From the NCBI GenBank assembly GCA_036265815.1, contig DATAOI010000045.1, positions 1 through 44,513 on the forward strand: a stretch of 44,513 nt of DNA, given 5' to 3'. Source of the DNA: Gemmatimonadales bacterium (GTDB taxonomy: Bacteria; Gemmatimonadota; Gemmatimonadetes; Gemmatimonadales; GWC2-71-9). The translations under genes were made by a program, and so were the position numbers. Numbering within the stretch: position 1 is the stretch's first letter; each line of letters starts with the position of its first letter. This document shows positions 29,405 through 35,124 of the stretch, one piece after another. The notes under the pieces were generated by a model that saw nothing but the letters and a program-made list of their open reading frames with translations, did no database searches and was not told where the DNA came from.

Positions 29405-29408
<4 letters not shown>
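29127..29408 (-). CDS. ylxP: DUF503 family protein (YlxP-like)
   Basis: A 93-residue protein matching DUF503/YlxP, often found between infB and rbfA. It starts VIVAVQTWELHLPGCHSLKEKR, where the HSLKEKR segment is the family hallmark, then VSVAETDHQDAWQRAEIACAVV and a C-terminal helix. Function is not firmly known; a role in ribosome assembly is inferred from context. The GTG at 29408 overlaps the infB stop in a GTGA. Confidence 0.92.
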
Positions 29409-32113
<2,705 letters not shown>

Positions 32114-32124
32114 TCAATCCTCCA

Positions 32125-32430
32125 TCAGGAGCGTACGGGCGCCAGCTGCACCATGCCGCTGGCCAACGCGCGGTCCCGCACACCTACCGCCATGACCGGC
32201 GGCTTTCCCAGCTGCGCGCCGATCGCGGCGGCGCGCGGGCCCGGCACGATCGGCACCGACTTCGCCGCCGCCAACCGGACCACTTTTTCCACGGCGCGCG
32301 GGCTGGCGTCTTCCGCCACGACCACGCACCAACACTTGCCTGCCTGCAGCTCCTTCCGCACCGCCTCGACTCCGACCACCACCCGCCGTCCCCGATAGCC
32401 CAGTCCCAGAAGACCCAGGAGCCCGCTCAC
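32125..32430 (-). CDS. ylxQ: L7Ae/YlxQ-like RNA-binding protein
   Basis: A 101-residue protein with an L7Ae/L30e/S12e-type fold: RRVVVGVEAVRKELQAGKCWCVVVAEDASP, then a helix and IVPG, and AIGAQLGKPPVMAVGVRD. YlxQ proteins bind kink-turn-like RNA and commonly sit between nusA and infB. The short first gene of that pair, ylxR, is absent here; nusA overlaps ylxQ by 4 bp instead. Family assignment is by fold pattern and position. Confidence 0.85.
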   Translation of the reverse strand: MSGLLGLLGLGYRGRRVVVGVEAVRKELQAGKCWCVVVAEDASPRAVEKVVRLAAAKSVPIVPGPRAAAIGAQLGKPPVMAVGVRDRALASGMVQLAPVRS

Positions 32431-33749
32431 GGGCGGGGCCGCGACTCCTCGCTCTCGCTCTCGTCGGTGAGCTCGGAGAGGAACGCCAGGAGCTGCTCGG
32501 AGGTCTCGGGCGTGATGCCCGGGATCTTGGCGATGTCTTCCCGCTCGAGGTCGAGAACGTCGTTCAACATCTTATAGCCGGCGGTCTCCAGCAGGGCCGT
32601 GAGCTCGGGGGACAGACCCTTGAGCTCGGTCAGTGGCACCTGGGCGACGGTCTCCTCCTCCGGCGGCAGCGGCGCGAACAGCGGACCTTCCCCGCCCCGC
32701 TCCAGCCACTCGCGGCTGGAGTAGAGATCGATCTTCCAGCCGGTGAGCTCGGAGGCGAGCCGGACGTTCTGCCCGTTGCGTCCGATGGCGAGCGAGAGCT
32801 GGTCTTCGTCGACCACCGCCTGAATCGTCTTGGCCTCCGGATCGGAGAACACCTTGGCCACCCGCGCGGGCGCCAGCGCCAGGCGGGCGAACCGCTCCGG
32901 ATCCGGCGACCAGGGCACGATGTCGATCCGCTCACCGCCGAGTTCGTTGACCACCGCCTGCACCCGGGAACCCTTGAGGCCCACGCAGGCGCCTACCGGA
33001 TCGATCGCGTCGTCCCGGGAGATGACCGCCACCTTGGTGCGGCTCCCCACCTCGCGGGCGATGGCGCGAATCTCCACTATCTGCTGCTGGATCTCGGGCA
33101 CCTCGAGCTTGAACAGCGCCTTCACGAACAAGGGGTCGCCGCGGGAGAGAATGAGCCGGGGACCCTTGGGCGTCTCCTCCAGGCGCTTGAGCACCGCCCG
33201 GATGGTATCGCCCTGGTGGAAGTGCTCCCGATGGTTCTGCTCGCGGTAGGGAATGATCGCTTCCGCCTCGCGGAACTTGTTCAGCATGATGACCAGCTTG
33301 CCCCGCTCGATCTGCTGGACCTCACCGGAGAGCAGCTCGCCCACCTTGGAGGCGAATTCCTCGCGGATCCGCATCCGCTCGCCTTCCCGCACCCGCTGGA
33401 TGATCCGCTGCTTGGCGGCCTGCACCGCGAGGCGGCCGAACTCGACGAAGGGGACCTCCTCCTCCAGCATGTCGCCGACCTGGAAGTCGGGGTCCTCGTA
33501 GCGGGCCTCCTCCAGGGCGATCTGCCAGCTCGGGTCTTCGATCGTTTCCACCACCTGGCGGAGCCGGGTCACCTTGATGGTGCCCTGCAGCTCGTCCACG
33601 CTCAGCTCGAACTTGACGTTGGGGCCGAACTTCCGGACCAGTGCCGCCTGAATGCCGTCGCGGAGCAGGTCCAGGAGATCGGAGCGCTCCAGTTGTTTCG
33701 CAGTCGTCAGCTCGCGGAACGCGGCCAACATTTCGGTCGAACCAGCCAT
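32427..33749 (-). CDS. nusA: Transcription termination/antitermination factor NusA
   Basis: A 440-residue RNA-polymerase-binding protein. An N-terminal domain (about 1-130) contacts polymerase. An S1 domain has GELLSGEVQQIERGKLVIML. Two KH domains follow, with DPVGACVGLKGSRVQAVVNELGGERIDIV and LSLAIGRNGQNVRLASELTGW. The C-terminus ends with a helix-hairpin-helix segment (LKGLSPELTALLETAGYK) and an acidic Glu/Ser tail. It may autoregulate the operon: an intrinsic terminator precedes rimP, 0.5 kb upstream. ATG at 33749. Confidence 0.96.
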   Translation of the reverse strand: MAGSTEMLAAFRELTTAKQLERSDLLDLLRDGIQAALVRKFGPNVKFELSVDELQGTIKVTRLRQVVETIEDPSWQIALEEARYEDPDFQVGDMLEEEVPFVEFGRLAVQAAKQRIIQRVREGERMRIREEFASKVGELLSGEVQQIERGKLVIMLNKFREAEAIIPYREQNHREHFHQGDTIRAVLKRLEETPKGPRLILSRGDPLFVKALFKLEVPEIQQQIVEIRAIAREVGSRTKVAVISRDDAIDPVGACVGLKGSRVQAVVNELGGERIDIVPWSPDPERFARLALAPARVAKVFSDPEAKTIQAVVDEDQLSLAIGRNGQNVRLASELTGWKIDLYSSREWLERGGEGPLFAPLPPEEETVAQVPLTELKGLSPELTALLETAGYKMLNDVLDLEREDIAKIPGITPETSEQLLAFLSELTDESESEESRPRP

Positions 33750-33780: not shown

Positions 33781-34260
33781 TCACCGCTTCCGGGGCTTCT
33801 CCCATTCCACCACGAGCGTGGCGTCCCGCACGTCGGCGAGCGATACGGTCACGTCGGTACCGTCCTCGCCCCGGAGTGTCACGTGCTCGTCGTCGGGCAC
33901 GCCGATGATCTCGACCTCCCGGCGCCCGCCGAGCGGCTCGGCCCGAACCCGGGCACGCCGCCCGACGAAGCGGCGCCAGTGCTCGGGCCAGCGCAGCGGC
34001 CGCTCCACGCCCGGAGAAGACACCTCCAGCACGTACCGCGGCCCGACCATCGCCCTGGATTCCAGGAAGCGCTCGAGGGACCGGCTGATCCCAGCGCAGT
34101 CGTCGGCCGTCACTCCCTGGCCGGGCCGGCTGTCCGGGCGGTCCACCCGCACCTGCAAGATGGGGCGCTGCATGGTTCCGCTGCGGCGGAGATCGACCAG
34201 CTCGAAACCGAGCTCGGCGATGTGGTCGCGAATCGGATCGATGAGCGCGTCGACAGACAT
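33781..34260 (-). CDS. rimP: Ribosome maturation factor RimP
   Basis: A 159-residue protein needed for 30S assembly. The N-terminal domain shows IRDHIAELGFELVDLRRSG and LQVRVDRPD. The middle has VTADDCAGISRSLERFLE and the conserved YVLEVSSPGVERPLRWPEH. The C-terminal domain is an SH3-like barrel. The ATG at 34260 gives the standard length; a GTG at 34299 would read through the terminator hairpin and is rejected. There is no obvious SD; the sequence just before the ATG is the T-run and GC-rich tail of that terminator. First gene of the translation-factor operon. Confidence 0.94.
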   Translation of the reverse strand: MSVDALIDPIRDHIAELGFELVDLRRSGTMQRPILQVRVDRPDSRPGQGVTADDCAGISRSLERFLESRAMVGPRYVLEVSSPGVERPLRWPEHWRRFVGRRARVRAEPLGGRREVEIIGVPDDEHVTLRGEDGTDVTVSLADVRDATLVVEWEKPRKR

Positions 34261-34272
34261 CGGGCGTTGCGG

Positions 34273-34301
34273 AAAAAAAATGTGGGGGAACTCCCCCACA
34301 T
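34273..34301 (-). terminator. Intrinsic terminator in the rimP leader
   Basis: On the minus strand a 9-bp perfect stem (ATGTGGGGG with CCCCCACAT, bases 34301-34280) with a 4-nt loop is followed at once by eight T residues (34280-34273, the first shared with the stem end). This is a textbook Rho-independent signal. The T-run ends 12 bp before the rimP ATG. It can end pgeF transcripts and, because a promoter lies upstream of it, could also attenuate the rimP-nusA-infB operon. Confidence 0.88.
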
Positions 34302-34338
34302 CACAGTTGGCCTCTCCAAGCGCCCCCCGGGACAGCGC

Positions 34339-35124
34339 CTAAATACTATCCCCGGGCGAGGCGTCAGTCAATCGCCGTGGGAGTCCGAGATAGGCAACCA
34401 TGCGGCCGTCGGAGCCGCGCGAGGCGCGGTGGCTGAAGAAGGTGGAGCGGTCGTGGGCGGAGCACCAAGCCGAAATGGTGGTACTCCGGACGCCGAGCGC
34501 GCCGGCCTCCGAGGCCAGCCGCTCGCGCAGGTCCAGGTGATGCGGGCCCGGCCCGTCCAGGGGAATGCCGCAGCCCGTGAGCACCTCAGAGCCAACTTCA
34601 TAGCATCGGCCGCAAATGCCTACACCACAATGTATTACGATTTCATCGGAGGAGGTGCCGGTGGCGTCCTCAAGCGCCGCGAGCCCGGCGCGGAGGATCC
34701 CTCCGGCCGTGCCACGCCAGCCGGCGTGCAGCAGGGCGACGCCGCGGCCGGGCGCCAACAGGTACACTGGGATGCAGTCCGCGACGGTGACGGCGAGCAG
34801 GATCCCCGGCTCCGTCGTGACCCAGCCATCGACGCCGTCCACCTGCACCCACCCTTCGGCCGCATCGATGCGGGAGACCACCGTGCCGTGGATCTGGTTG
34901 CCGAGCACGACCGCGGAGAACCTATCGTCCGCCCGCCGGAAGGCACGCCACCGGCTCATCACCTCGCCGACCGGCGCATCGCTCCAGAGGCCGAGATCGA
35001 AGCCGCGGCCCGGCTCGTCGCCGCGCCCGGTGATCCCGGCGACGACGCCGTAGCGGCCGCGCCAGTCGGAGAGCTCGTAACGGGGGATGGTGCCGGGGGT
35101 GGGATCTTCGCGAACGATCGTCAT
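34339..35124 (-). CDS. pgeF: Polyphenol oxidase/purine nucleoside phosphorylase family (YfiH/PgeF)
   Basis: A 261-residue YfiH-family protein. It shows VVLGNQIHGTVVSR with the first zinc-site His, a VTVADCIPVYL segment with the metal Cys, and LLHAGWRGTAGGILRAG with the second His. In other bacteria these proteins cleave nucleosides or purge wrong peptidoglycan precursors, and older names call them laccases. The C-terminus runs over the promoter of the rimP operon. ATG at 35124, 62 bp after the murA stop. Confidence 0.92.
   Translation of the reverse strand: MTIVREDPTPGTIPRYELSDWRGRYGVVAGITGRGDEPGRGFDLGLWSDAPVGEVMSRWRAFRRADDRFSAVVLGNQIHGTVVSRIDAAEGWVQVDGVDGWVTTEPGILLAVTVADCIPVYLLAPGRGVALLHAGWRGTAGGILRAGLAALEDATGTSSDEIVIHCGVGICGRCYEVGSEVLTGCGIPLDGPGPHHLDLRERLASEAGALGVRSTTISAWCSAHDRSTFFSHRASRGSDGRMVAYLGLPRRLTDASPGDSI
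34343..34371 (-). promoter_or_regulatory. Sigma-70-like promoter for the rimP-nusA operon
   Basis: On the minus strand a TTGACT (-35, bases 34371-34366) and a TAGTAT (-10, 34348-34343) are separated by exactly 17 bp. The predicted start is near 34336, giving a leader of about 75 nt before rimP. The promoter overlaps the stop codon end of pgeF and lies just upstream of the terminator hairpin. It also has a G-run (about 34329-34324 on the other strand reading C) that could compete for the terminator's C-arm. Not experimentally known. Confidence 0.72.

Follow-up and report, generated by a model that had tools for sequence, protein, structure and literature searches.

The stretch of DNA between pgeF and the rimP-nusA-infB operon raises the question of why an apparent intrinsic terminator should stand between a promoter and the first gene of an operon coding for NusA and IF-2. 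The locus lies in a window of 44,513 nucleotides (the whole stretch analyzed here) from a Gemmatimonadales bacterium, and its features are collected in Table 1. Our analysis shows the element to be real and strongly conserved, and we read it as a probable attenuator of a familiar type, which would operate through transcription termination, in a little-studied phylum for which a non-exhaustive literature search yielded no earlier description of it. We consider it likely that this promoter-proximal intrinsic terminator attenuates rimP-nusA-infB, probably by means of NusA-stimulated termination.

Table 1. Features of the rimP-nusA-infB leader and its neighboring genes, in window coordinates.
Feature	Position	Strand	Details
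Sigma-70-type promoter (predicted)	34343..34371	minus	-35 TTGACT, 17-nt spacer, -10 TAGTAT
Conserved block GCTGTCCCGG	34327..34336	minus	predicted transcript 5' end
Terminator hairpin ATGTGGGGG-AGTT-CCCCCACAT, 9 bp	34280..34301	minus	folding; paired changes in relatives; covariance model
T8 run (U-tract)	34273..34280	minus	T-run in every relative examined
rimP, operon gene 1	33781..34260	minus	PF02576 above cut-off; NCBIfam RimP models below cut-offs
nusA, operon gene 2, probable feedback source	32427..33749	minus	TIGR01953 384.8 bits, above cut-off
infB (IF-2), later operon gene	29405..32113	minus	TIGR00487 805.5 bits, above cut-off
pgeF, upstream gene, same strand	34339..35124	minus	TIGR00726 E 6e-27, below curated cut-off

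Two elements that an earlier note had read from the window, a TTGACT-17-TAGTAT promoter where pgeF ends and, 12 nt before the rimP ATG, a 9-bp G/C stem with a T8 run, are both present in the sequence. The -35 (34371-34366) and -10 (34348-34343) hexamers overlie the final codons of pgeF (stop codon 34341-34339), and they form the only sigma-70-like site within 33900-34700, an 800-bp interval for which shuffled sequences give a mean of 0.0 sites. The predicted start site falls near 34336, and the stem begins some 35 nt downstream of it. There, 34301-34293 pairs with 34288-34280 around the loop at 34292-34289, giving a hairpin (GATGTGGGGGAGTTCCCCCACATTTTTTTT) of -17.4 kcal/mol that is closed by the first T of the T8 run (34280). 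Folding of the entire leader plus the rimP start was uninformative (z -0.76), and no Shine-Dalgarno-like motif was found in the 12 nt separating the U-tract from the rimP ATG (34260). The curated NCBIfam cut-offs were exceeded by NusA, IF-2, TruB and MurA, with PgeF and RimP scoring below them.

The element stands alone in its genome. Runs of seven or more Ts occur only twice on both strands of a 277,826-base sample of that genome, window included, and the run at 34273-34280 is the only one preceded by a hairpin. The hairpin pattern itself occurs once in the 4.6-Mb genome, which led us to reject a generic repeated terminator, and the covariance model built on the element (R1) has its sole match in the genome at 34305-34267. 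An upstream open reading frame within the hairpin, starting at the ATG of GATGTGG or at the in-frame GTG at 34299, was also considered and discarded, since its frame with respect to rimP varies among relatives and its ATG is absent from the clade carrying GCGGGC.

The earlier note had suggested looking for the same layout in relatives, and it is widely kept. The order of promoter, hairpin, U-run and rimP recurs in the upstream regions of 49 genomes, and this retention places the layout far above chance. By protein searches, rimP was detected in 51 of 61 genomes (our own included), and in all 51 the covariance model places the element before the rimP match, at a distance of -1 to 93 nt. R1 matches with E<=0.02 across the 61 genomes either precede rimP or correspond to five rimP-less cases with nusA, and the weak second matches (E 0.15-0.9) resemble ordinary terminators of other genes. 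A scripted search found a promoter 5' of the hairpin, at 110 nt or less, in 48 of 49 relatives; that of the remaining one (L010) lies farther off. Nearly all near relatives keep GCTGTCCCGG at the predicted 5' end, a block that forms part of no conserved helix; in its place, genus g45 carries another conserved block, GTTGGGGCAACTTGCG.

Conservation extends to the hairpin sequence itself, which most near relatives, with RimP identities as low as about 58%, share unchanged with the window. A sister clade of that family carries GCGGGCGAAGTTCGGCCCGCGCTTTTTTTT or similar hairpins, and other families of the class present GAAGTGGGGGAG..CGCCCCCGCTTTTTT and similar versions at the same position. In an alignment of 36 sequences, the G.GGG and CCC.C cores show no change, and neither do four Ts. 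The eight stem pairs tested are paired in 96.9% of cells; four of them never vary and the other four display two-sided changes, amounting to 24 such cells where shuffles give 7.2. In the phylum sample, R1 matches with E<=0.1 were obtained for 169 of 298 genomes, nearly all of them from the same order, and many class-level leaders that escape R1 nonetheless carry the same plan. No such T-run was seen in the single usable locus of an alphaproteobacteria-like outgroup (L063).

Genomes lacking rimP offer a natural experiment within the Gemmatimonadota, in that several lineages have lost this widespread 30S maturation gene and have kept the terminator before nusA. The promoter, hairpin and U-run persist 85-230 nt before nusA, on the same contig, in 14 genomes without rimP. 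Ten belong to the family f1 of the window (G010, G011, G025, G036, G134, G136, G156, G189, G251 and G297), with RimP undetected by PF02576 and the hairpin about 130-230 nt before the NusA start; in G016 the hairpin is present and the contig ends. In genus g45, rimP is missing from G067, G072 and G165 and present in G078, G185, G286 and G308, and the local version of the hairpin (TGTCGGGT..CCCCGGCATTTTTT and the like) is found with and without the gene alike. Finally, family f5 contributes G100, assembled as one contig, in which rimP is absent and the hairpin precedes nusA by about 85 nt. Trees of NusA do not reject a single origin of rimP loss for the ten f1 genomes tested (AU p 0.41), and for this reason we claim only three losses: at least that many are needed, one in f1, one in part of genus g45 and one in G100. 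Genomes of family f2 lacking both rimP and the hairpin were examined as counterexamples and set aside; we read them as assembly gaps, because, of the seven checked, five are missing nusA as well and two have an incomplete nusA.

The absence of rimP from the nusA locus (L094, L095, L096, L097, L066, L073, L155-L158, L162, L164, L165 and L167) is matched in the corresponding genomes, which come from several Gemmatimonadota lineages, by a genome-wide failure of PF02576 to detect the gene. A separate case is G133, of genus g48, in which the RimP match (L159 369-668) is shortened and diverged, with 33% identity and no PF02576 match, and the hairpin is unchanged; RimP is 52% identical in G117, from the same genus.

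The element thus goes with nusA and belongs to the operon as such. Its retention after the loss of rimP argues against RimP as the sensed protein and speaks for NusA. If the promoter is the operon's own, polymerase must pass the terminator to reach the genes, and read-through would have to be partial or regulated, with termination presumably taking place at the hairpin in the cell. NusA stimulates intrinsic termination, and as some lineages have lost the first protein of the operon and the RNA offers no partner for the hairpin, it becomes the simplest candidate for the signal, a role to which the cases of Bacillus subtilis and Escherichia coli also point. In such a scheme, RNA polymerase would start near 34336 and complete both hairpin and U-tract in about 65 nt, after which it would either stop at 34273-34280 or read on into rimP, nusA and infB. 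NusA bound to polymerase would stabilize the hairpin-paused complex and promote termination, so that abundant NusA would lower transcription of its own operon.

Several other explanations can be put forward for a hairpin in this position. Because it sits about 40 nt past the pgeF stop codon, in the same direction, the hairpin would also end pgeF transcripts, and it could be construed as a plain 3' terminator of murA-pgeF with rimP expressed by leakage. We regard this as improbable, given that in almost every case a promoter separates the hairpin from pgeF, that most f3 genomes retain the hairpin with no pgeF found directly upstream, and that its sequence conservation far exceeds that of an ordinary terminator, nothing similar appearing in the rest of the genome sample. 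Somewhat easier to entertain, though still unlikely, is a partial terminator that is constitutive and unregulated and merely fixes the expression level of the operon, with no feedback signal. The leader has neither a sensor domain nor an alternative structure, and a leaky terminator of fixed strength would look the same in sequence, from which regulation cannot be read directly. On the other hand, regulation of this operon by NusA has been reported in B. subtilis (PMC12288461) and E. coli (PMC6511841), and the strong conservation of both sequence and pairing suggests recognition. This last aspect also counts against the reading we prefer, for NusA acts at most terminators and by itself leaves the near-invariant hairpin sequence of near relatives unexplained. 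A tentative extension, which we hold to be possible but not probable, is that the hairpin itself senses dosage, probably that of NusA, in a sequence-specific way. The idea arises because the near-invariant hairpin is found in leaders that hold hardly anything beyond it, the U-tract and the start codon, as well as in rimP-less lineages; if true, a general elongation factor would be reading a dedicated hairpin with no need for any other part of the leader.

Attenuation by NusA-stimulated termination must also be weighed against mechanisms that reside in the RNA or in translation. The proposal of a leader attenuator in the earlier note holds up well in the layout of all 51 rimP genomes and in its agreement with the published rimP-leader, but not in the part that invoked an antiterminator, in which an upstream G-run would pair with the C-arm of the terminator and act as an RNA switch. 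The G-run at about 34328-34323 can indeed form this pairing (-12.3 kcal/mol), yet it is weaker than the hairpin, is equaled in the window by 40 of 200 shuffles, and relies on a G-run that is broken or missing in L005, L010, L011 and L013. Moreover, the stem begins 0-5 nt after the predicted start site in 12 sister-clade genomes, which leaves almost no leader before the hairpin and no room for an antiterminator; a switch of this kind is therefore not needed, and we deem it hardly credible. An alignment of ten leaders from near relatives likewise yielded the terminator plus a weak, poorly supported upstream helix, with no convincing conserved alternative to compete with it as in a riboswitch or antiterminator-type attenuator. 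As for translation, the U-tract might serve as a ribosome (S1) landing site for rimP, which the hairpin would mask or position. A Shine-Dalgarno motif is absent in family f1, and in L027 and L029 the rimP AUG follows U8 directly, also without such a motif. The hairpin and T-run do cover the ribosome site of rimP, as the earlier note had it, but as geometry rather than as a main role, since the persistence of the element at 85-230 nt from the nusA start after rimP loss disfavors the U-run as a rimP ribosome site, and in family f2 the U-tract lies 20-84 nt from the start codon. A primary function in translation is hence very unlikely, whereas in family f1 the U-tract may play a secondary part in it. 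The leaders of L027 and L029 raise in their own right the question of how ribosomes find the rimP AUG.

The minimal leader of hairpin and U-tract is directly testable in vitro, and its plan has counterparts in distant bacteria. In E. coli, rimP is reported to be preceded by terminators and the operon to be controlled by NusA (PMC6511841), and the E. coli leader CTGGGCTTTAGGCCCTTTTTTT follows the same plan of G-arm, C-arm and U-run; its tandem terminators and tRNA gene, however, are absent from the window locus. Rfam has no meaningful family at the site: RF01770, a gammaproteobacterial model of 102 positions, gives no match in our genome, with none at the site at E<=5, and recognizes the E. coli control. 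In the gbs0413-gbs0418 operon of Streptococcus agalactiae a prematurely terminated leader RNA stops 31 nt downstream of the start site (PMC4448216). The operon is the same and the very short geometry is the one predicted for the sister clade, although transcript ends were measured in S. agalactiae and are predictions here, and the likeness drawn is one of geometry. A functional parallel is found in B. subtilis, where, according to the summary given in a review of Mondal et al. 2016 (PMC12288461), NusA autoregulates its expression via NusA-stimulated termination in the leader. In both systems the 5' leader of the NusA operon carries an intrinsic terminator, with attenuation requiring no metabolite, and in the Gemmatimonadota the terminator stays directly before nusA once rimP is lost. 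The role of NusA was demonstrated by depletion in B. subtilis and is inferred here, and the two leaders are likened by description rather than by alignment.

The failure of RF01770 leads us to file the element under the general description of the rimP-leader instead of an Rfam family. Naville and Gautheret (2010) presented the rimP-leader as a set of conserved rimP terminators found across bacteria, at the time called the most ubiquitous bacterial attenuator, consisting of a short G-arm/C-arm terminator with no antiterminator; RimP and NusA were named as sensor candidates, with NusA favored (PMC2965389). In their description, a GGGc(...)gCCC stem lies 4-130 nt before the gene (PMC2965389). The Gemmatimonadota element shares the G-rich 5' arm, the C-rich 3' arm and the U-stretch shortly before the rimP of rimP-nusA-infB, as well as the lack of any larger conserved element or visible antiterminator. 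GGG and CCC are invariant in the 36 aligned sequences; the inner closing pair is G-C in the window (GGGG..CCCC), as opposed to the C-G pair of the rimP-leader, which only the sister clade reproduces exactly (GGGC..GCCC), and the spacing after the U-tract goes down to 0 nt in the window's family. Where the element departs from the published description is in having a promoter at a short fixed distance and in persisting without rimP.
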